A program made the translations under genes and the position numbers. Positions 38 to 9,667 of a DNA stretch of 64,000 bases are shown piece after piece (the first letter of the stretch is position 1; each line of letters starts with the position of its first letter). Source of the stretch: Mycolicibacterium phocaicum. Lineage in GTDB: Bacteria > Actinomycetota > Actinomycetes > Mycobacteriales > Mycobacteriaceae. The stretch is taken from assembly GCF_010731115.1 (NCBI RefSeq), contig NZ_AP022616.1:3348001-3412000 (forward strand). Direction: 5' to 3'. Below the pieces are notes generated by a model. It saw only the letters and a program-made list of their open reading frames with translations, was not told the origin of the DNA and did no database searches.

Positions 38-2569
38 ATGCCGAAGAAAATCGATCCTGCCTTGCGTGAGCGGGCGGTGCGGCTGGTGACCGAGCATCAG
101 CAGGAGTACTCGTCGTTGACCGCCGCTTCGGAAGCGGTGGCCCGTCAGCTTGGGGTGGGTAAGGAATCGGTGCGGCGCTGGGTGGTGCAGGCCCAGATCG
201 ATGATGGTCAACGACCCGGTGTCACCACGGAGGAGAACGAGGAAATCAAGCGGCTGAGGGCTGAAAACCGAAGGCTACGTGAGGATGTCGCGATTCTGAA
301 AGCGGCGACAACTTTCTTCGCGGGGGAGCTGTGCGCCACGAGGCGCTGGGTATATCGAGAGGCGGTGAGAGACCGTCTCCTTTGGGTCGTCGCAGCGGCC
401 TGAGGAAGCATCGGGGCAGCCGATCGCCGGGAACGACGGTGAGCGGTGGCAAGCGGCCCCGAGAAGGCGAGCCGTGCCGGTACTGCCAGACGGTGCGGGC
501 TTGTCGAGCAAGGTCAGAAGGTGCAGCGCAAGCGAACCAGTGTCAGACGCTCCGTAACCGCGAAGCCGGCTCCAACCTGGTGGATATGGGCCGGTATGCA
601 GTGCACGAACCCGAGCGGGTGGGGTTTGACTCCGAAGCCGTTTAGTTCCAGCGGTGGGGAGGCCACGGTGAAGGCCTGCGGCGTAACCATGGCGATGCTG
701 CCGGAGTAGAGCTGGGCGCCTCCCTGACCAATCGATGACCTGGTGAACGTGGGAACCACCTTGCGGGACCGTTCATTTCGTTTCCGGTAGCCAGCCGGGG
801 CGGGTGTGACGACTCGGGTTCGGAGTCAAGGAACCGCATTCGGGTGGGGCGGAGGCTTCGTAGTAGTCGCGGGCGGTGACGTGCCCGCCGTGGAGACCGA
901 GAAAGGCGGTCACAGGGCGAAGGGGGCCAGCAAGACATGCAGTGCGGAAATTGGAAGATCAGGAGATGACGTTATGTCGCCGGTGAATACCGACGAGCTG
1001 GAGTTGGCGCTGATGCTGGCGCGGCAACGGGTACTGAAGATCCAGACCAAGCTGCACCGTTGGGCACGCGATGATCCTCATCGCCGGTTCGACGATCTGT
1101 TCAACCTCGTCACTGATCCCGCGTTCATGTTGGTGGCGTGGGATCGGGTCAGCGGGAACAAGGGTGCCGCCACGGCCGGGGTCGATCGACGCACCGCGTC
1201 GTCCATCACGGCTGGGCAGGGTATCGAGGCGTTCCTCGATGAACTGCGGTCGCAGGTAAGGGACCGCAGTTTCCGCCCGTTGCCGGTGCGCGAGCGGATG
1301 ATCCCCAAGACCGGTGGTGCGTTGCGCCGCTTGGGGATTCCGACCGTGACCGATCGGGTGGTCCAGGCATCGTTGAAGTTGGTGTTGGAGCCGATCTTCG
1401 AGGCGGATTTCCTGCCGTGTTCCTACGGTTTCCGTCCGAAGCGCCGCGCTCATGATGCGGTGGCCGAAGTGCGTTACCTCGCAACACGTCCCCGGTGTTA
1501 CGACTGGGTTGTTGAGGGAGACATCAAGGCCTGTTTCGATGAGATCGACCACACGGCCCTGATGGGCCGGGTGCGTCGACGCGTCGGGGACAACCGTGTC
1601 CTGGGATTGGTGAAGGCGTTCCTCAAGGCGGGCATCTTCACCGAGGACGGCCTGCTGGCGGACAGCACCGCCGGAACCCCGCAGGGTGGGATTCTTTCGC
1701 CGTTGTTGGCCAATGTGGCGTTGTCGGTGCTCGACGAACACATCGCCGGGTTGTCGGGTGGTCCGGCCACCGGCTCGGTGGAGCGTGCTCGACGACTTCG
1801 TCACGGGCAGCCGAACTTTCGGCTGGTCCGCTACGCCGATGACTGGTGTCTGATGGTGCGGGGCACCAGAGCCCAGGCCGAAGCACTACGGGAGGACATC
1901 GCCGCCGTGTTGGCGACGATGGGGTTGCGTCTGTCGCCGGATAAGACCCTGATCACCCACATCGACGAGGGGCTGGACTTTCTCGGGTGGCACATCCAGC
2001 GTCGCCGCAAACGAGGCACCAGCTGCAGCTACGTCTACGTTCATCCGTCCACGAAGTCCGTGTTGGCGGTCAAACGGAAGATCAAGACGCTGCGCCGAAC
2101 AGTCGAACCCAGCCAGCCGCTCGATGACCTGCTGCGCCGGATCAACTCGACGCTGCAGGGCTGGGCGGGATATTTCCGGGCCGGGGTGTCCTCGGCGACC
2201 TTCTCCTACCTGAGCCACTACACGTGGCAGACGGTGTGGCGTTGGCTGCGCCGAAAACACCGCAAATCGACCTGGAAACAGTTGCGCCGCCGCTACTGCG
2301 GCGGCGGCTGGTGGCCAACCACCGAGGACCGGATGCTGATCGATCTGGAGAAGATCGGCACCACCCGCTACCGCTACCGCGGCGCGGTCATCCCCTCGCC
2401 CTGGCCGACCCCCGAGGAGGACACCACAGCAGCCTGACCGGGTCTTGTGGAGAGCCCGGTGCATTGAAAGGTGCACGCCGGGTTCGGGAAGCGGCCCGGG
2501 AAAACGGAACAGCCCCAACGGTTGTCACCGCGTCCCGGGCCGACTTTCACCGACCCCCGCAACCGGTGA
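38..2569 (+). CDS. IS3-family transposase OrfA (exons 38-330 and 2551-2569, split by a group II intron)
   Basis: OrfA supplies the DNA-binding and regulatory part of the IS3 transposase. The first exon encodes an N-terminal helix-turn-helix (LRERAVRLV, then a GVGKESVRRWV recognition-helix region) followed by a leucine-zipper-like coiled coil (EIKRLRAENRRLREDVAIL). Translation through the unspliced intron would run into junk and stop at 401-403. Joining 330 to 2551 gives the standard family ending FFAGELDPRNR and a stop at 2567-2569, a total of 103 residues. The stop overlaps a GTG of orfB in the sequence GTGA, so orfB may be translated by reinitiation or by -1 frameshifting. Expression of intact OrfA therefore seems to depend on splicing. 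The ATG at 38 was chosen because the product then begins MPKKIDP, like OrfA of element B (MPKKYDE). Confidence 0.85.
974..2437 (+). CDS. ltrA: Group II intron-encoded reverse transcriptase/maturase
   Basis: This 487-residue intron-encoded protein assists splicing and performs target-primed reverse transcription during retrohoming. The RT fingers and palm occupy roughly residues 50-330, with motif A Asp in EGDIKACFD (about 183), the GTPQGG motif at 234-239 and the catalytic YADD at 287-290. A maturase (X) domain follows, with the conserved INSTLQGWAGYFR region. The C terminus has no visible HNH zinc motif (no paired CxxC), so the protein probably lacks the endonuclease domain. The frame is open from 806, but the ATG at 974 is preceded by AGGAG at 961-965 and matches normal family N termini. 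No frameshift or missing RT residue is apparent, so the intron may be active. Confidence 0.93.
   Translation: MSPVNTDELELALMLARQRVLKIQTKLHRWARDDPHRRFDDLFNLVTDPAFMLVAWDRVSGNKGAATAGVDRRTASSITAGQGIEAFLDELRSQVRDRSFRPLPVRERMIPKTGGALRRLGIPTVTDRVVQASLKLVLEPIFEADFLPCSYGFRPKRRAHDAVAEVRYLATRPRCYDWVVEGDIKACFDEIDHTALMGRVRRRVGDNRVLGLVKAFLKAGIFTEDGLLADSTAGTPQGGILSPLLANVALSVLDEHIAGLSGGPATGSVERARRLRHGQPNFRLVRYADDWCLMVRGTRAQAEALREDIAAVLATMGLRLSPDKTLITHIDEGLDFLGWHIQRRRKRGTSCSYVYVHPSTKSVLAVKRKIKTLRRTVEPSQPLDDLLRRINSTLQGWAGYFRAGVSSATFSYLSHYTWQTVWRWLRRKHRKSTWKQLRRRYCGGGWWPTTEDRMLIDLEKIGTTRYRYRGAVIPSPWPTPEEDTTAA
2452..2550 (+). ncRNA. Group II intron domains V and VI
   Basis: Domain V is the 34-base hairpin at 2452-2485. 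It starts GAGCCCGG, has a GAAA tetraloop region (TTGAAAGG) and closes with CCGGGTTC; the catalytic AGC triad is at 2453-2455. Domain VI pairs CGGCCCGGGA (2492-2501) with TCCCGGGCCG (2533-2542). The unpaired A at 2543 lies eight bases from the intron end and is the expected branch-point adenosine. Confidence 0.9.
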
Positions 2570-3540
2570 TCTTCGCGTTCATCGACGATCAACGCGCCGC
2601 TGGGCACGCGGTCGAGTCGATCTGCCGAGTCTTGTGTGAGCAGGGCTGTCAGATCGCCGCGCGCACCTACCGGTCCTGGAAACAACCAGGCCGGACGGTA
2701 GCGGCCCGCACCATCACCGACGCCCAGGTCATCGACGCTGTGCGTGGCCTGGCGTGGACCACCAACGCCGCCGGCAAGCGCGTTCTGGCCCCCGAGGGGC
2801 TCTACGGGCGGCGCAAGATGACGGCCCTGATCCGCCGTGCCGCGCTGCCAGAGGCCTCGGCGGGCTCGGTGCACCGGGCGATGTGCACGTTGGGTCTGCA
2901 GGGCATACGGCGGTCAAAGAAGGTGCGCACCACGATCCCGGACACCGACGGGCGCCGCGCCCCGGATCTGCTCAACCGCAACTTCCATGCGAGCGTCCCG
3001 AACCGGGTATGGGTCACCGACTTCACTTACGTGCGGTCCTGGGCGGGCTTTGTCTACGTGGCCTTCATCGTCGACGTGTTCGCTCAGCGGATCGTGGCCT
3101 GGCACGCGGCCACCACCAAGACCACCGATCTGGTGATGGTCCCGTTGCGGATGGCCGTGTGGCAGCGCCGTCACGAAGGTCATCCCACCGCAGCCGGCGA
3201 GCTCATCCACCACAGCGACGCCGGAAGCCAATACACGTCGGTCCGTTTCACCGAACACCTTGAACTGGAAGGGATTTCACCTTCCATTGGCAGCGTCGGG
3301 GATGCCTACGACAACGCTCTGATGGAAACGATCAACGGCTTGTACAAGACCGAATGCATCCGAACCACAGTGTTCCACCCGGGGCCGTTTAGGACCATCG
3401 CCGACGTCGAGTACGCGACAGCAGCCTGGGTCGAGTGGTACAACAACCGAAGGCTGCACTCCAGTCTCGGCATGGTCAGCCCAACCGAGTACGAGCACGC
3501 CCACTACAGCGCCCTCGACCGAGAGCGTCAACCCGTATAG
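2566..3540 (+). CDS. IS3-family transposase OrfB (DDE integrase)
   Basis: This 324-residue OrfB carries the catalytic core that cuts and joins IS ends. An HTH_21-like N-terminal region (residues 1-130, with VESICRVL and a YGRRKM segment) precedes an rve integrase core. The catalytic acidic residues are D152 (WVTDFTY), D218 (HHSDAGSQYTS) and E254 (NALMETINGLYKTE), giving the D(35)E spacing of the family. The protein looks intact. The start is given as the GTG at 2566 overlapping the orfA stop (GTGA); in IS3 elements a fused OrfAB made by -1 frameshifting is the active transposase, which is also possible here. Upstream reading in this frame runs into the intron and is not coding. Confidence 0.9.
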   Translation: MIFAFIDDQRAAGHAVESICRVLCEQGCQIAARTYRSWKQPGRTVAARTITDAQVIDAVRGLAWTTNAAGKRVLAPEGLYGRRKMTALIRRAALPEASAGSVHRAMCTLGLQGIRRSKKVRTTIPDTDGRRAPDLLNRNFHASVPNRVWVTDFTYVRSWAGFVYVAFIVDVFAQRIVAWHAATTKTTDLVMVPLRMAVWQRRHEGHPTAAGELIHHSDAGSQYTSVRFTEHLELEGISPSIGSVGDAYDNALMETINGLYKTECIRTTVFHPGPFRTIADVEYATAAWVEWYNNRRLHSSLGMVSPTEYEHAHYSALDRERQPV

Positions 3541-3959: not shown

Positions 3960-4922
3960 TTATGGGTGTGCAGCCGCGGATTGGGCTGTGTTCGTAGCGT
4001 AGTAGACGGCCTCGTACTCGACGGGTGGGATGCGGCCCAGGCGATGCATGAGCCGGTCGGTGTTGTACCAGTTCACCCAGTCGGCGGTGAGCAGTTCCAC
4101 GTCGGTCAGCCGGTGCAGCGGGCCATGCCGGAACGGGGAGTCATCGCGGATGGCTTCGTGCTTGTAGAGCCCGATCGTGGTTTCGGCCAGAGCGTTATCG
4201 TAGGCGTCGCCGACCGATCCGATCGATGCCACCAACCCCGATAGTGCGAGGGTTTCCCCGAACTTCACCGACGTGTATTGAGACCCCGCATCGGAGTGGT
4301 GAATAGTTCTGCCGGACAACGGATTACCTTCACGACGCCGGAGTTCGGCGGCGTGGCGGATCGCCCGCCGAACGAATGCATCGCTCTTGCCGGCCGAGCA
4401 GGTCCAGCCCACGATCCGCCCGGCGTACGCGTCGATGGCGAACGCGGTGTAAACGAACACTCCTGACGACAATCGGACGTAGGTGAAATCGGCCACCAGC
4501 AGTTTGTTGGGTGCCGGTACGCGGAACTGGCGGTCCACCAAGTCCGGTGCCCGCCCGGCCGCCGGGTCAGCGATGGTGGTGCGGACCCTCTTGCGCCGGG
4601 TGACCCCACGCCACCCGTTGGCCCGCATCAACCGTTCGACGGTGCAACGGGCCACTTCGATGCCCTGGCGCTGCAGGTGAGCCCACATCTTGACCGCGCC
4701 GTACAACGACTCCGGTTTACGCCGGCCCGCCCGGTCAGGTTCGTAGTAGCCGGCCAGCACCTGCGTGATCACGGTGTCCCACAAGGCCCGCGCGGACGGG
4801 GGCCTGGTGAGCCAGGCGTAGAAGGTTCTCGGGGCGATCTGGCAGCCATGCTCGGACAGCACGCGGCAGATCGAAGCGACCCCGAACCGAGCACGATGCT
4901 CGGCGATGAACGCACAGATCAG
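3960..4922 (-). CDS. IS3-family transposase OrfB (DDE integrase), element B
   Basis: This frame of about 320 residues is the catalytic subunit of element B's transposase. The integrase core shows the DDE set in LLVADFTYVRL, IHHSDAGSQYTS and NALAETTIGLYKHE. The frame begins at a CTG overlapping the orfA stop (CTGA), exactly where element A has GTGA. The first ATG is only at 4862, inside the conserved N terminus (MLSEHGCQIAPRT). Production as an OrfAB frameshift fusion is therefore more likely than independent initiation. No disabling change is seen. Confidence 0.88.
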   Translation of the reverse strand: MICAFIAEHRARFGVASICRVLSEHGCQIAPRTFYAWLTRPPSARALWDTVITQVLAGYYEPDRAGRRKPESLYGAVKMWAHLQRQGIEVARCTVERLMRANGWRGVTRRKRVRTTIADPAAGRAPDLVDRQFRVPAPNKLLVADFTYVRLSSGVFVYTAFAIDAYAGRIVGWTCSAGKSDAFVRRAIRHAAELRRREGNPLSGRTIHHSDAGSQYTSVKFGETLALSGLVASIGSVGDAYDNALAETTIGLYKHEAIRDDSPFRHGPLHRLTDVELLTADWVNWYNTDRLMHRLGRIPPVEYEAVYYATNTAQSAAAHP

Positions 4923-5230
4923 CGGCGTCGCGGGTCGCTCTCCCGCGCGAAGAAACTTGTTGCCGCCTTGAGGATTTCGATCGTTTCCTCAAGCTCCTTG
5001 TTCTTGCGTTTGAGCTCGCGCAACTCCCGTGCGGTATCGCTGGGCACCCCGGCACGATCCCCGGCATCGACCTCGCCCTGGGCGACCCATCGTCGCAGCG
5101 ATTCGTACGAAACTCCCAACCGCTTGGCGACCGCAGTGATGCAGGCCGTGCGGGTGTCGTATTCGTCGGCATGGTCAGCGACCAACCGCACCGCCCGGGC
5201 CTTGAACTCCTCGTCGTACTTCTTCGGCAT
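4919..5230 (-). CDS. IS3-family transposase OrfA, element B
   Basis: This 103-residue DNA-binding subunit starts MPKKYDEEFKARAVRL and contains a helix-turn-helix (GVSYESLRRWV) and a coiled coil rich in Glu and Lys (ELKRKNKELEETIEIL). It ends FFARESDPRRR, the same architecture and length as spliced OrfA of element A. It overlaps orfB by four bases. The ATG at 5230 was chosen over an upstream in-frame ATG (5269) that would extend into the terminal repeat. Confidence 0.9.
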   Translation of the reverse strand: MPKKYDEEFKARAVRLVADHADEYDTRTACITAVAKRLGVSYESLRRWVAQGEVDAGDRAGVPSDTARELRELKRKNKELEETIEILKAATSFFARESDPRRR

Positions 5231-5284
5231 GATGCGAATTACCTTCCCTCGAAAGAAGGTGTGCATCAAACCCGGGGCGGTTCA

Positions 5285-6758
5285 CCTGCCCGCCGGCATG
5301 AGGCCGAATACGCCGCGCTTCTCCGGTGACGGCAAGACCATCTTCTTCGCGGCCACACCGCCCACCGGTGGCCGCCAGGAGATCTACCAGATCAAGGTCG
5401 ACGGCACCGGCCTCGACTGCATGACGTGTGGCGCATCGCCCGAAATCACTGCAGGCTTGTCCAGAGTTGTTCCCTTCCAGGATGATTCAGGCCGTCTCAT
5501 GATTCAGGTCGGGACCACTCCCAACGGCTACGCCGTGTTCGAAAGCGATGCGAACGGCAAGCGGTTGGTGCCCGTGGTCGCGCCACCCTCAGCCGCGCGG
5601 GCACTCGACCCGCTGCGCGAGATGCGAATCTCACCCGACGGAAAGCAGGTACTGTTCAGCCAGATTCAATTGGGCCAGGGCGGCAATATCACTGCCGTAC
5701 CGATCGTCGGGACGTTGACTCGCACGACGAATGCGACAACCGGCGCGGCCGAGTATCACGTCGACAACGCCCAGGTGGTCTATCCCGTAGGCGAGGGCAA
5801 ACAGTGGACCCCGGACGGCAAGAGCGTGATCATCATCGGCGGCACCTATGAGGCCGGCAATGTCGACGACATCGCCGTCAACCTGGCCACTGGCGCCGTG
5901 TCCCGCATCACCGCCAACCTCGAATACGACGAAGACATCGACATGTCCCCCAATGGGCAGTGGATCGCGGTCGGCAGTACCCGCGGCTACCACGCATTGT
6001 CTCCGATGGACCGGATCGAACGACCGGCATTCCTGCCGGCGTACATCCAGGGCAGCGTCTATCAAGCGTATGCAGGAACCTCCGACGGAGTGAACGTCAG
6101 CAACCAGGAGTGGGCCATCGCGCTGGAGGATGAACTCAAGGGCGAGAACGGGATTCCCTTGTTCGTCAACAATGACGGCTACACGGCGCGCAGCATGGCG
6201 AGCTGGAACGCCGATGGCACCGCCGTGACGTTCTGGGAAGCAAATCCCACCGACTCCCGGATCGTGGTGGCCAATCTCCAGTACACGACAAGCGTCGGTC
6301 CGGTGGCCGCAGACCGGTCCACGCCCGATCCGGCGCAGTACACCTGGGCCCACCCGCTCGCCACCTACGTGCCCAGCGCAGCCCCGCTGCCGAGCACCGG
6401 AAGCTACGCGGGCCCCGGCGGGGGCACCGCGGTGGTCAGCGAGACTCCTGGTGCCACCGGTCACACCATCCGCACCGTGACGTACACCAACTACGTCAAC
6501 AGCCAGGGAATGGTTCTCAACGGCACCGAATCAACGGACTCGACCGCGAGCCAATCCACCATCCGCTACGTCGCCGACATCACCGTCACGGGCACACATA
6601 CCGGATATCTGACCGGCGATGTGAACATCAACAAGCTCACCCGCACCATCACTTCAACCGATCCGACCAACCCCACGCCCATCACCTCATCGCTCGACGG
6701 CGACAAGCAGGTGCTGCTCGACCCCACCGACATCGCCGACGCACGCGCCAACATGTAA
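5285..6758 (+). pseudogene. Interrupted Ig-like/beta-propeller surface protein, 3' fragment
   Basis: This is the C-terminal 489 codons of the gene cut by IS element B; the frame joins 3929 to 5289 as NRVIMNL-PAGMRPN. It holds at least five PD40/TolB-like propeller blades: FSGDGKTIFFA, ISPDGKQVLFS, WTPDGKSVIIIGG, MSPNGQWIAVGS and WNADGTAVTFW. A linker follows and then a C-terminal region rich in Thr/Ser. Such propellers usually bind proteins or glycans outside the cell. The fragment has no proper start; the open frame upstream of it is antisense IS DNA. It may be silent or transcribed from outward IS promoters. The exact function is unknown. Confidence 0.85.
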
Positions 6759-6805: not shown

Positions 6806-7546
6806 GTGGATCTGACGGACTCGTATACCCGCGTGCTGCCGCCGCACATCCGCGACCGGTACGAGTTCATCGAGACCCGCAACGCCGCCGCGATTCTGGC
6901 CGCCACCAACCCGCAGCGGTTCGACGAACTCCTCGCCGCCCTGCACGAATTCCAGCTCCGTACCGACGATCTCGTCCAACCCGGCGGCCAGGAGACCGAA
7001 CTGGCGGCGCGGCTCAACACCGCGTTCCGCAACAAGGGATGGCGCGAGGCGCGCGTCGACACCCGAATCCGCCTGGAGCTGCGCAAGATGCCGCACAAGC
7101 CGGCCGGTGAACTGCACCCGATCCTCGAGGACACCGAGGTCTTCAACGAGGGCTACAAGGTCGACAACTTCGTCGACCGGCTGGCCCTCGACGTGGAGTG
7201 GAACGCCAAGGACGGCAACCTCGATCGCGATCTGAGCGCCTACCGCGCGCTGTACGACGCGGCACTGATCGACGTCGCCGTGATCATCACGCGCACCCAG
7301 ACCGACCTGCGCACCCTGGGCTACCGGCTCGGCATCGAGGCCGGCATGGACGACGAGCGCGCCCGCCGCATCCTGGCCACCACAACCACCACCAACACCG
7401 AGAAGTTGCGGCCCCGCATGCAGCGCGGTGACAGCGGCGGCTGCCCGCTGCTGGCCGTCGCGATCTGCGCCCGCACCTGGGCCGACCACGCCCCGGCTCA
7501 GGGCGAGCAGGAACCCACAGACGACATCGGCCTCTGGGAGGCCTGA
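6806..7546 (+). CDS. BglII-family type II restriction endonuclease
   Basis: This 246-residue protein resembles the BglII/BstYI restriction endonuclease family, which cleaves AGATCT or related sites. The likely catalytic region is KVDNFVDRLALDVEWNAKDG (about residues 118-137), with D120/D124 and E131-x-N133. BglII itself uses E-x-Q in place of the usual E-x-K, so E-x-N is a similar variant. RDL at 141-143 follows, as is usual in the family. GTG at 6806 is preceded by TACCGT at 6794-6799, a -10 hexamer placed for a leaderless transcript. A methyltransferase gene follows after 79 bases, completing a restriction-modification pair. Specificity for AGATCT is inferred from the family and from two such sites in the intergenic leader. 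Confidence 0.75.
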   Translation: MDLTDSYTRVLPPHIRDRYEFIETRNAAAILAATNPQRFDELLAALHEFQLRTDDLVQPGGQETELAARLNTAFRNKGWREARVDTRIRLELRKMPHKPAGELHPILEDTEVFNEGYKVDNFVDRLALDVEWNAKDGNLDRDLSAYRALYDAALIDVAVIITRTQTDLRTLGYRLGIEAGMDDERARRILATTTTTNTEKLRPRMQRGDSGGCPLLAVAICARTWADHAPAQGEQEPTDDIGLWEA

Positions 7547-7563
7547 CCTGTCGGTGCCATCGC

Positions 7564-7618
7564 CTACGATTCCGTGAAGATCTTCTCCGTTCGAAAAGAT
7601 CTAATTCGAAAGTAGGAG
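7564..7618 (+). promoter_or_regulatory. R-M intergenic leader with two AGATCT sites and paired TTCGAA boxes
   Basis: Two AGATCT hexamers lie at 7578-7583 (inside the 10-bp palindrome GAAGATCTTC) and 7597-7602, 19 bp apart. Two TTCGAA palindromes lie at 7590-7595 and 7605-7610, 15 bp apart. TACGAT at 7565-7570 could be a -10 box and AGGAG at 7614-7618 is the ribosome-binding site for the GTG at 7626. The interleaved repeats suggest an operator; methylation or HTH binding here could set methyltransferase expression. This role is inferred. Confidence 0.55.
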
Positions 7619-7625
7619 TGACACC

Positions 7626-8489
7626 GTGGCGAAACGCAGCGACCAGGCCGGCGCCGAGTCGAAGGCCGCCCCCCTGCGCGATATCGCCGCGCCGCCGCCG
7701 CTGCCCACCGTCGACGGCGGCTGGAAGACCGTATTGGCCGATCCCCCTTGGCGTTTCACCAACCGGACCGGCAAGGTCGCGCCCGAGCACCGGCGCCTGG
7801 ACCGCTACTCCACACTCGATCTCGACGCCATCTGCGACATCCCGGTGTCCACCGTCGCGGCGCGCGACTCACATCTGTACCTGTGGGTGCCCAACGCGCT
7901 CCTGCCCGAGGGGCTGCGCGTCATGGAGGCGTGGGGGTACCGCTACGTCTCCAACGTCATCTGGGCCAAGCGGCGCAAGGACGGCGGGCCCGACGGCCGC
8001 GGTGTCGGCTTCTACTTCCGCAACGTCACCGAGATCATCCTGTTCGGAGTGCGCGGCAGTATGCGCACGCTGCCGCACGCGCGCAGCCAGGTCAACATGA
8101 TCGAGACCCGCAAGCGCGAGCATTCCCGCAAGCCCGACGAGCAGTACGGGTTCATCGAGGCCTGCTCGCCCGGACCGTACCTGGAACTGTTCGCGCGCCA
8201 TCCGCAGCCGGGTTGGACCGCGTGGGGCGACGAGTCGGCCGCCGACGTCACGCCGCGCGGCCAGGTCCACAAGGGCTATGCCGGCGGGGCGATCGACGTG
8301 CCGCCCGTGACCAAGCACGTCCGGCTCGACCCGACGACGGCCGAACGCATCGGCAAGGAACTGCGCATCCGGTACGAGAACGGCGAGAGCATCCGCCAGC
8401 TCGCCGAGGAGACCGGCTACGGCATCACCCGGGTGCGTGGGCTGTTGGAGCGGGCCGGCACGACATTCCGCGGCCGCGGACCGCAATAA
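7626..8489 (+). CDS. MT-A70 family adenine-N6 DNA methyltransferase with C-terminal helix-turn-helix
   Basis: The 287-residue protein has the MT-A70 catalytic motif DPPW at residues 39-42 and the family pattern LYLWVPNALLPEGLRVM, followed by YVSNVIWAK. It should transfer methyl groups from S-adenosylmethionine to adenine. The last 50 residues (ELRIRYENGESIRQLAEE, then GYGITRVRGLL) form a helix-turn-helix of a type found as stand-alone mycobacterial regulators. The enzyme may therefore bind DNA as a regulator as well as modify it. It follows the BglII-family nuclease and presumably protects its sites. BglII's own partner is an N4-cytosine enzyme, so an N6-adenine partner would be a switch of chemistry. 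GTG at 7626 has a good Shine-Dalgarno (AGGAG). Confidence 0.82.
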   Translation: MAKRSDQAGAESKAAPLRDIAAPPPLPTVDGGWKTVLADPPWRFTNRTGKVAPEHRRLDRYSTLDLDAICDIPVSTVAARDSHLYLWVPNALLPEGLRVMEAWGYRYVSNVIWAKRRKDGGPDGRGVGFYFRNVTEIILFGVRGSMRTLPHARSQVNMIETRKREHSRKPDEQYGFIEACSPGPYLELFARHPQPGWTAWGDESAADVTPRGQVHKGYAGGAIDVPPVTKHVRLDPTTAERIGKELRIRYENGESIRQLAEETGYGITRVRGLLERAGTTFRGRGPQ

Positions 8490-8547: not shown

Positions 8548-9396
8548 TTACCAGACTCGCACGTAGTCGACGAGCATCTCGGCCGGGTAGCTGCCACCCT
8601 TGGGGTCGCCGCCACCGGAACCGGACACCGCCAGGTTCAGGACCGGGAACACCGAGTAGCCGGGCAGGTTGAACGGCCAGTCGTCCAGCGAGTTGGCAGG
8701 CACGTAGAAGTAGGGCTGCATGCCCTCGGTGTAGTCCTGCCAGAACGACATACCGGCGTCGTTCCAGGTGACGCGCCAGGTGTGCCAGCCACCGTCGATC
8801 GGGTGCGGGTGCGTGTCGAACGACGTGCCGTCCGACCGGGCGTGCACCGTGGTGCCCGACGGCCATTCACCGTTGCCGTACCACTCGGCCAGGTCGATCT
8901 CGCCGCCGACGACGGGGTGGTCGTTGGACAGCCACCAGGCCGGCCAGCAACCGTTGGTCAGGCAGTTGAACTTGATCCGGGCTTCCCAGGTGGTGTTGAT
9001 GCCACCCCAGAAGGTGCCGAAGACCTTGCCACTGGTGTATTTCCCGTTGCCGTCGCGCGTGGCGCGGATGACGAGGTTGCCCTTGCCGTCCAGAAAGACG
9101 TGTTCCCGGTCGTCGCGGTACTGGCCCATGTTCTCCGGGCGGTCCCAGAACACCGGGTTCTTGATGGTCTCGCGCTGCGGGGAGATGTTCCACTTGGCCG
9201 GGTCGGGCCGCGAACCGGCAGGGCCGTCGAACTCGTCGTGGAAGATGTAGGACTGTGTTTGCGCAGCCGGCTGGGGAGCCAGCGGCGGAGTGGGCGAGCT
9301 GCCCGGTTGGGAATCCGCGAGAGCGGCGGGGGACGGCATCGCGGCGGCGGCCAGCAGGCCCAGCCCCGACGCGCGCATCATGTTTCGACGATCCAT
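8548..9396 (-). CDS. Secreted glycoside hydrolase family 16 (beta-glucanase-like)
   Basis: This 282-residue exported glycosidase carries the GH16 signature GGEIDLAEW. Nucleophile E166, D168 and acid/base E171 are all present. The N terminus (MDRRNMMRASGLGLLAAAAM) has twin arginines followed by a hydrophobic run, so export by Tat is possible. A short Pro/Gln/Ser-rich linker precedes the catalytic jelly-roll (FHDEFDG to MLVDYVRVW). GH16 enzymes cut beta-1,3 or beta-1,3-1,4 glucans or related galactans; the substrate here cannot be read from sequence. The ATG at 9396 was chosen because it places the signal sequence at the N terminus; the open frame extends 30 codons further upstream without a signal. 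Confidence 0.9.
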   Translation of the reverse strand: MDRRNMMRASGLGLLAAAAMPSPAALADSQPGSSPTPPLAPQPAAQTQSYIFHDEFDGPAGSRPDPAKWNISPQRETIKNPVFWDRPENMGQYRDDREHVFLDGKGNLVIRATRDGNGKYTSGKVFGTFWGGINTTWEARIKFNCLTNGCWPAWWLSNDHPVVGGEIDLAEWYGNGEWPSGTTVHARSDGTSFDTHPHPIDGGWHTWRVTWNDAGMSFWQDYTEGMQPYFYVPANSLDDWPFNLPGYSVFPVLNLAVSGSGGGDPKGGSYPAEMLVDYVRVW

Positions 9397-9667
9397 TTCC
9401 GGCACAGTGCCATATACAAGCCGCTCAGACAGACTTGGCGCAACTTGCGACACGCTTGAAATCACCTGCAAGAGCGGCATTCTCATCGTCGGCGGGCAAC
9501 CACGAATCAGCGGTCAGCAAAACCCGATGTCAGCCAGATATCGGCGCCAGCCAGCGAATCCCGACCAAAAAGCCAAGATCAGCAATACCGAATACCCAGA
9601 CCTGCGGACAGCCGGGTATTCGACACCGCCGAAAAACCGAAACCGCCCAGTAACAACCGGTTCCGGC

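Follow-up and report, generated by a model that had tools for sequence, protein, structure and literature searches.

Paired RGATCY sites before an HTH-fused MT-A70 methyltransferase gene as a candidate autoregulatory operator

Two AGATCT hexamers in the leader of the methyltransferase (M) gene of an R-M system from Mycolicibacterium phocaicum probably constitute an autoregulatory operator of that gene, made of the sequence that the enzyme itself recognizes, RGATCY being the likeliest candidate; we place the probability of this reading at roughly 60%. Its basis lies in the position of the sites, their conservation across phyla, their phased spacing, the restriction of their variation to RGATCY and their co-occurrence with an HTH domain fused to M. 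From these observations we infer that the sites are the system's own and that M would bind them, methylate them and repress its own synthesis. In R-M systems the methyltransferase must come first and then stay low. Section 10 of a recent review describes promoter self-methylation as "apparently rarely used", giving three examples (PMC12707154). A similar sequence logic was found here in three bacterial phyla, on plasmids and in viral contigs, alongside the fused HTH; because of this recurrence, the reading, if true, would amount to a common solution to the control of M and would offer a compact test case for an enzyme that both reads and writes its own control site.

The R-M locus and the leader of M

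The window analyzed here is a stretch of 64,000 nt from a host genome of 5.85 Mb assembled as one contig. The features of the R-M locus, in which R denotes the endonuclease gene, are as follows.

6806..7546, + strand: R gene, BglII/BstYI-family type II restriction endonuclease, 246 aa, GTG start (PF09195, E=4.1e-27; several database relatives are so named)
7543..7548, + strand: putative -35 CTGACC, 16 bp upstream of the -10 (from a script scan)
7565..7570, + strand: putative -10 TACGAT (from the scan; TACGAT precedes site 1 in mycobacterial loci L002-L011, with TACCAT in L008)
7578..7583, + strand: site 1, AGATCT (RGATCY), near the expected transcription start (from the sequence; kept in 10/10 mycobacterial loci L002-L011)
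7590..7595, + strand: TTCGAA box 1, lineage-specific (from the sequence and mycobacterial comparison)
7597..7602, + strand: site 2, AGATCT (RGATCY), 19 bp downstream of site 1 (from the sequence)
7605..7610, + strand: TTCGAA box 2, lineage-specific (from the sequence and mycobacterial comparison)
7614..7618, + strand: AGGAG, likely ribosome-binding site, 7 nt upstream of the GTG of M (from the sequence)
7626..8489, + strand: M gene, MT-A70 adenine methyltransferase with a C-terminal HTH, 287 aa, GTG start at 7626 (PF05063, E=4.7e-27)
8310..8480, + strand: HTH_58 domain of M, codons 229-285 (PF19575, E=4.5e-11)

Judged by sequence, the locus has the composition of a type II R-M system of the BglII/BstYI type, with a PF09195 nuclease and an adjacent DNA adenine methyltransferase. 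M also matched the PADLOC model for type II methyltransferases (E=2.4e-122), and its DPPW was invariant across 35 aligned sequences. The AlphaFold2 model of M, poor as a whole (mean pLDDT 66) and with a low-confidence linker before the HTH, predicted three helices within HTH_58 (residues 236-251, 256-263 and 267-276) in a block with pLDDT values of 78-90. A separate small C-protein gene was ruled out in the gaps before R (47 nt), between R and M (79 nt) and after M (58 nt), all of which are too short to hold one. The system is sporadic within the genus, since a close M was found in only 2 of the 148 genomes searched, the window's genome counted among them. Group II intron reverse transcriptase/maturase and transposase genes (integrase-core, HTH_Tnp_1) lie upstream of the R-M genes at positions 806-2437, 2224-3540 and 3960-5269, which suggests a mobile or defence island, and a glycosyl hydrolase family 16 gene (8548-9486) directly follows M on the opposite strand.

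The initial annotation had reported two AGATCT and two TTCGAA hexamers between a BglII-family nuclease gene and its methyltransferase gene, and all four were found in their places in the 79-nt gap. Their number is ordinary: the window contains nine AGATCT versus 5.4 in shuffled sequences (sd 2.9; 15 of 100 shuffles reach nine) and eight TTCGAA versus 7.2. Genome-wide (5.85 Mb), AGATCTN{4,24}AGATCT occurs nine times and RGATCY pairs with a gap of 6-20 bp occur 56 times. The rarity of the AGATCT pair was thus dropped as sole evidence and counts as modest evidence, the comparative data being what decides. By count alone the paired AGATCT is unusual only to a moderate degree; its location and its conservation put it far outside what chance would give. 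Between positions 6000 and 9500, RGATCY is confined to the two AGATCT of the M leader and a GGATCT at 6808-6813, which overlaps the start codon of R. The TTCGAA boxes, which had been described as interleaved with the sites, were not borne out as part of the element: they are common only to the nearest mycobacterial loci, remoter mycobacteria retaining just TTCG, and were rejected as lineage-specific.

The sites had also been placed directly before the methyltransferase start, and they appear to lie on or adjoining the predicted M promoter. The predicted -10 TACGAT ends 7 nt upstream of site 1 and recurs in L002-L011, so that the mycobacterial pair would sit about the start site and the early transcribed region. 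The mycobacterial -35 is weak, and inconsistent in L009-L011; a stricter sigma-70 scan of the window stretch returned no promoter and no terminator. In four Propionibacteriaceae loci (L016, L017, L018 and L029), a TTGACA-like -35 falls between the sites, site 2 lies in the spacer of 17-18 bp, and the -10 that follows reads TANNNT. These were the only four of 15 leaders scanned to display a near-canonical -35/-10, the other 11 being weaker or inconsistent, and the position of the pair relative to the predicted promoter varies among clades.

Paired sites among relatives of M

The comparative set consisted of the window and the best 80 of 283 M relatives from genome contigs, and RGATCY pairs were counted in the 230 nt that precede the aligned M start. 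In this set, the pair preceded M in 46 of the 50 HTH-fused loci versus 3 of the 31 loci without a fused HTH (Fisher p 3e-14, a value that ignores kinship). Within 150 nt, the latter count was 2 of 31. Among the three pair-bearing loci without a fused HTH, L052 seems genuine (19 bp, in the leader); the pair of L055 lies ~200 nt upstream of M, and that of L068 is inside a 24-bp tandem repeat. HTH-fused loci with the pair belong to Actinomycetota, Pseudomonadota and Chloroflexota and include mycobacteria, Propionibacteriaceae, Bifidobacteriaceae, Rhizobiales, Paracoccus, Rhodanobacter, Thiobacillus and a Chloroflexia MAG. The spacings in HTH-fused leaders were 12 bp (17 cases), 19 bp (16), 20 bp (6), 23-25 bp (7), 14 bp (1) and 31 bp (1), in a tally that L008, with three sites in range, enters three times. 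The four HTH-fused loci devoid of a pair were L031, which has a single AGATCT within a long palindrome, L038, with no AGATCT in its leader, and L047 and L049, each with one AGATCT and a partner AGACCC.

Enrichment in the leader was pronounced. At spacings of 12, 19, 20, 23, 24 or 25 bp, the 50 HTH-fused loci had 46 pairs in 7,500 nt of leader (150 nt each) versus none in 305,478 nt elsewhere, a contrast that is partly circular because the spacing set was taken from the same leaders; at any spacing of 7-40 bp, the figures were 48 pairs in leaders versus 5 elsewhere. Single RGATCY sites in these loci numbered 13.3 per kb of leader, compared with 0.27-1.15 per kb in the remaining bins. AGATCT was present in 41 of 43 non-redundant HTH-fused leaders (150 nt), 28 of which had at least two copies; after Markov randomization of the same 43, a mean of 2.0 leaders had AGATCT and 0.06 had two or more. 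No uniform dyad or direct-repeat architecture was found, the mycobacterial units resembling direct repeats and some 12-bp pairs lying in larger palindromes (L035, L165). Such longer palindromes enclose sites in L031 (the single site), L035 and L165.

Among relatives fetched after this first survey, the pair was present in 9/9 HTH-fused loci (L116-L120, L123, L124, L125 and L165) and in 0/19 testable HTH-less loci (L114, L121, L122, L126, L127, L129, L130, L132-L135 and L166-L173). Nine plasmid records matched at least 80% of M, six of which were fetched (L116-L120 and L123; H42, H45 and H47 were left out), and all six encode an HTH-fused M preceded by the pair; in L118, the sites are 14 bp apart and just past the annotated M start, which may be misplaced. 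The remaining HTH-fused loci are two viral contigs, one with the pair at 19 bp (L124) and one with GGATCT-N6-AGATCC and a divergent R (L125), and a sampled genome with a 12-bp pair (L165). L113 was excluded because it does not differ from L009 in the stretch compared. Five loci were dropped from the HTH-less group, namely L115 (identical to L114), L128 (contig ending where the HTH would start), L131 (69 nt upstream only), L174 (masked leader) and L175 (alignment from residue 79, with the leader outside); no pair was seen in the sequence available for them, which in L175 does not cover the leader. In some of the 19 loci, the M promoter may lie elsewhere because M follows R closely. One of 28 remoter viral relatives (L136-L163), L146, had RGATCY sites 30 bp apart; L164, whose match is confined to the HTH, was not counted.

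The pair had been presented as belonging to the leader between a nuclease and its methyltransferase. It is indeed conserved and tied to the M leader, but its companion is an M with a C-terminal HTH, not the nuclease. The pair is kept in L015, L032, L033, L046 and L053, in which no BglII-type R was found within ~3 kb, and in plasmid loci L117-L120, in which none was found within 2.5 kb; it is also present in L022, where no R was seen on a contig that ends soon after M. R-linked M genes without a fused HTH lack the pair in 21 of 22 cases. A check of the whole locus in the 31 cases without a fused HTH revealed no HTH in 13 and a separate HTH ORF after M in 18. These 18 Pseudonocardiaceae loci (L050, L054, L057 and L062-L076) have their HTH as a small unfused ORF, and none of them has a genuine pair upstream of M. 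On a catalytic-domain tree of 88 rows, the HTH changes six times and the pair eight times. The tree-corrected association between the two was not significant, with 2 independent comparisons on supported branches (6 on all branches), the sign test being unable to reach significance because independent events are few on the M tree. We regard the association of the pair with the HTH as suggestive.

The sequence targeted by M

The initial annotation had entertained the sites as the system's own, with AGATCT as the recognition sequence. They are very probably M's own substrate, but the target is probably RGATCY rather than exact AGATCT, because variants in the leaders stay inside RGATCY and because M shares 63% identity, across 197 residues (30-225), with a methyltransferase of proven RGATCY specificity, M.Nph3I of phage NrS-3. 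In 48 HTH-fused loci, the best partner of an AGATCT at the fixed spacings was AGATCT (33), AGATCC (9), GGATCT (3) or a two-mismatch sequence (3). All 12 single-mismatch partners were accordingly AGATCC or GGATCT, which lie within RGATCY and represent 2 of 18 possible neighbours; the 12 include duplicates, L034 and L037 having one common leader. L039 has two AGATCC, 14 bp apart. The base adjoining the hexamer was A or T in ~94% of the collected sites. M.Nph3I is described in PMC10734518 as methylating RG(6mA)TCY, and its PF09195 nuclease as cutting RGATCY. AGATCT as the exact target is weakened by this specificity and by the AGATCC and GGATCT variants. The proposed search for avoidance found AGATCT at 124 per Mb, the lowest value in a comparison of 54 genomes from the genus (mean 167, sd 21), a weak signal in that the densities are raw and uncorrected for base composition and the other genome sizes were rounded; avoidance was therefore demoted from proof of specificity to weak support.

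Candidate mechanism, alternatives and precedents

If M acts on its own leader, the sites would be free upon arrival of the R-M genes in an unmodified cell, the promoter would fire and M would be the first product. Rising M would then occupy the phased pair, its C-terminal HTH anchoring or dimerizing it on the DNA, and would methylate both leader sites. The pair, once occupied and methylated, would block RNA polymerase or promoter escape, M synthesis dropping to a maintenance level, and repression would be lifted once free M declines or replication renders the sites hemimethylated. Direct binding by M comes into play because the pair goes with the HTH-bearing M rather than with the nuclease, and it appears no less likely than a switch that works by methylation alone. 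More tentatively, and a little short of even odds in our estimation, the scheme may extend to a widespread MT-A70 family in which M is its own repressor and a phased pair of substrate sites its operator, the HTH holding the DNA and the catalytic domain marking it, so that a single switch, carried along with M by plasmids and viral contigs, would join occupancy to methylation memory. Counting against the operator reading are the few independent events on the M tree, the uneven promoter predictions, the 18 Pseudonocardiaceae loci with a separate HTH ORF and no genuine pair, L052, which has a pair but no HTH, L031, L038, L047 and L049, which have an HTH but no pair, and NrS-3, the closest relative of proven specificity, which has neither.

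A switch of the CfrBI/LlaDII type, in which methylation of the sites alone weakens the promoter and the HTH serves some other purpose (target search or dimerization, for example), is a realistic but minority possibility. Sites of the enzyme's own type overlap or adjoin promoter-like elements, and section 10 of PMC12707154 provides precedents in CfrBI, AhdI and LlaDII; yet HTH-less relatives, NrS-3 with its proven RGATCY included, are mostly without sites (in a count that ignores kinship), the phased spacings point to a protein complex that engages several sites, and the mycobacterial sites are downstream of the predicted -10. The conserved flanking A/T could belong to another factor, in which case AGATCT would be the operator of a host or element-encoded regulator other than M. 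We consider this improbable, since the element accompanies the HTH-fused M in three phyla, plasmids and viral contigs, and since its variation is confined to RGATCY, the known target of the family. The location of the sites between R and M in the window would suit a safety device whereby R cuts the M leader should methylation fail, but this is very doubtful given that pairs are kept beside M genes with no BglII-type R nearby, that R is convergent and downstream of M in L020, L021, L027 and L045, and that cutting needs no two tightly phased sites. As to a chance pair of hexamers, the nine such AGATCT pairs in the genome lend it some plausibility, but conservation and leader enrichment argue so strongly against it that we give it almost no credence.

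Autoregulation by M would have partial precedents. The M promoter of LlaDII harbors two of the system's own recognition sites. Control of M through methylation of a site that M itself recognizes, located in the M promoter, is described for CfrBI, AhdI and LlaDII in section 10 of PMC12707154 and, for LlaDII and CfrBI, in PMC3978073 and PMC4824078. The window system would resemble these three in having what is probably the methyltransferase's own type of site in or beside the predicted M promoter, with negative feedback on M expected, and differs from them in its MT-A70 enzyme with a BglII/BstYI nuclease, in a phased pair that recurs in three phyla and in the HTH fused to M. Regulatory methyltransferases of the SsoII/Ecl18kI/EcoRII type are presented in PMC3978073 and in section 10 of PMC12707154 as m5C enzymes that carry their HTH at the N-terminus and whose regulatory and methylation sites differ. 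They too are HTH-fused and have an element at their own promoter; here, in contrast, an MT-A70 enzyme bears the HTH at its C-terminus (residues 229-285), and the conserved element, a presumed operator, is an RGATCY pair that is apparently the methylation site itself. The window system appears to unite features of the promoter-methylation and the HTH-fused regulatory precedents.

HTH control of such an M is plausible in light of Acinetobacter baumannii A118, for which PMC10287943 reports a BglII/BstYI-type nuclease, m6A at RGATCY and a separate HTH regulator whose deletion raised the M transcript ~50-fold. A118 and the window have in common the nuclease type, RGATCY (methylated there, the probable target here) and HTH control of M (reported there, proposed here), but the A118 regulator is a separate gene. 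Nph3I (Nitratiruptor phage NrS-3, locus L114) likewise combines a PF09195 nuclease with an M related to that of the window, but has no fused HTH, an annotated transcriptional regulator gene after M and no paired sites upstream. RptR, the subject of PMC12255303, is a repressor of R-M systems. Among openly licensed PMC papers, no title among the matches listed describes an HTH-fused M with paired sites of its own. M. smegmatis MSMEG_3213 was considered and set aside; the gene appears in papers that deal with MamA and with an Mrr-like enzyme. In plasmid loci L117-L120, the paired sites and the HTH-fused M are found beside an AAA ATPase gene, and the ATPase of L119 weakly matches type II REase models.
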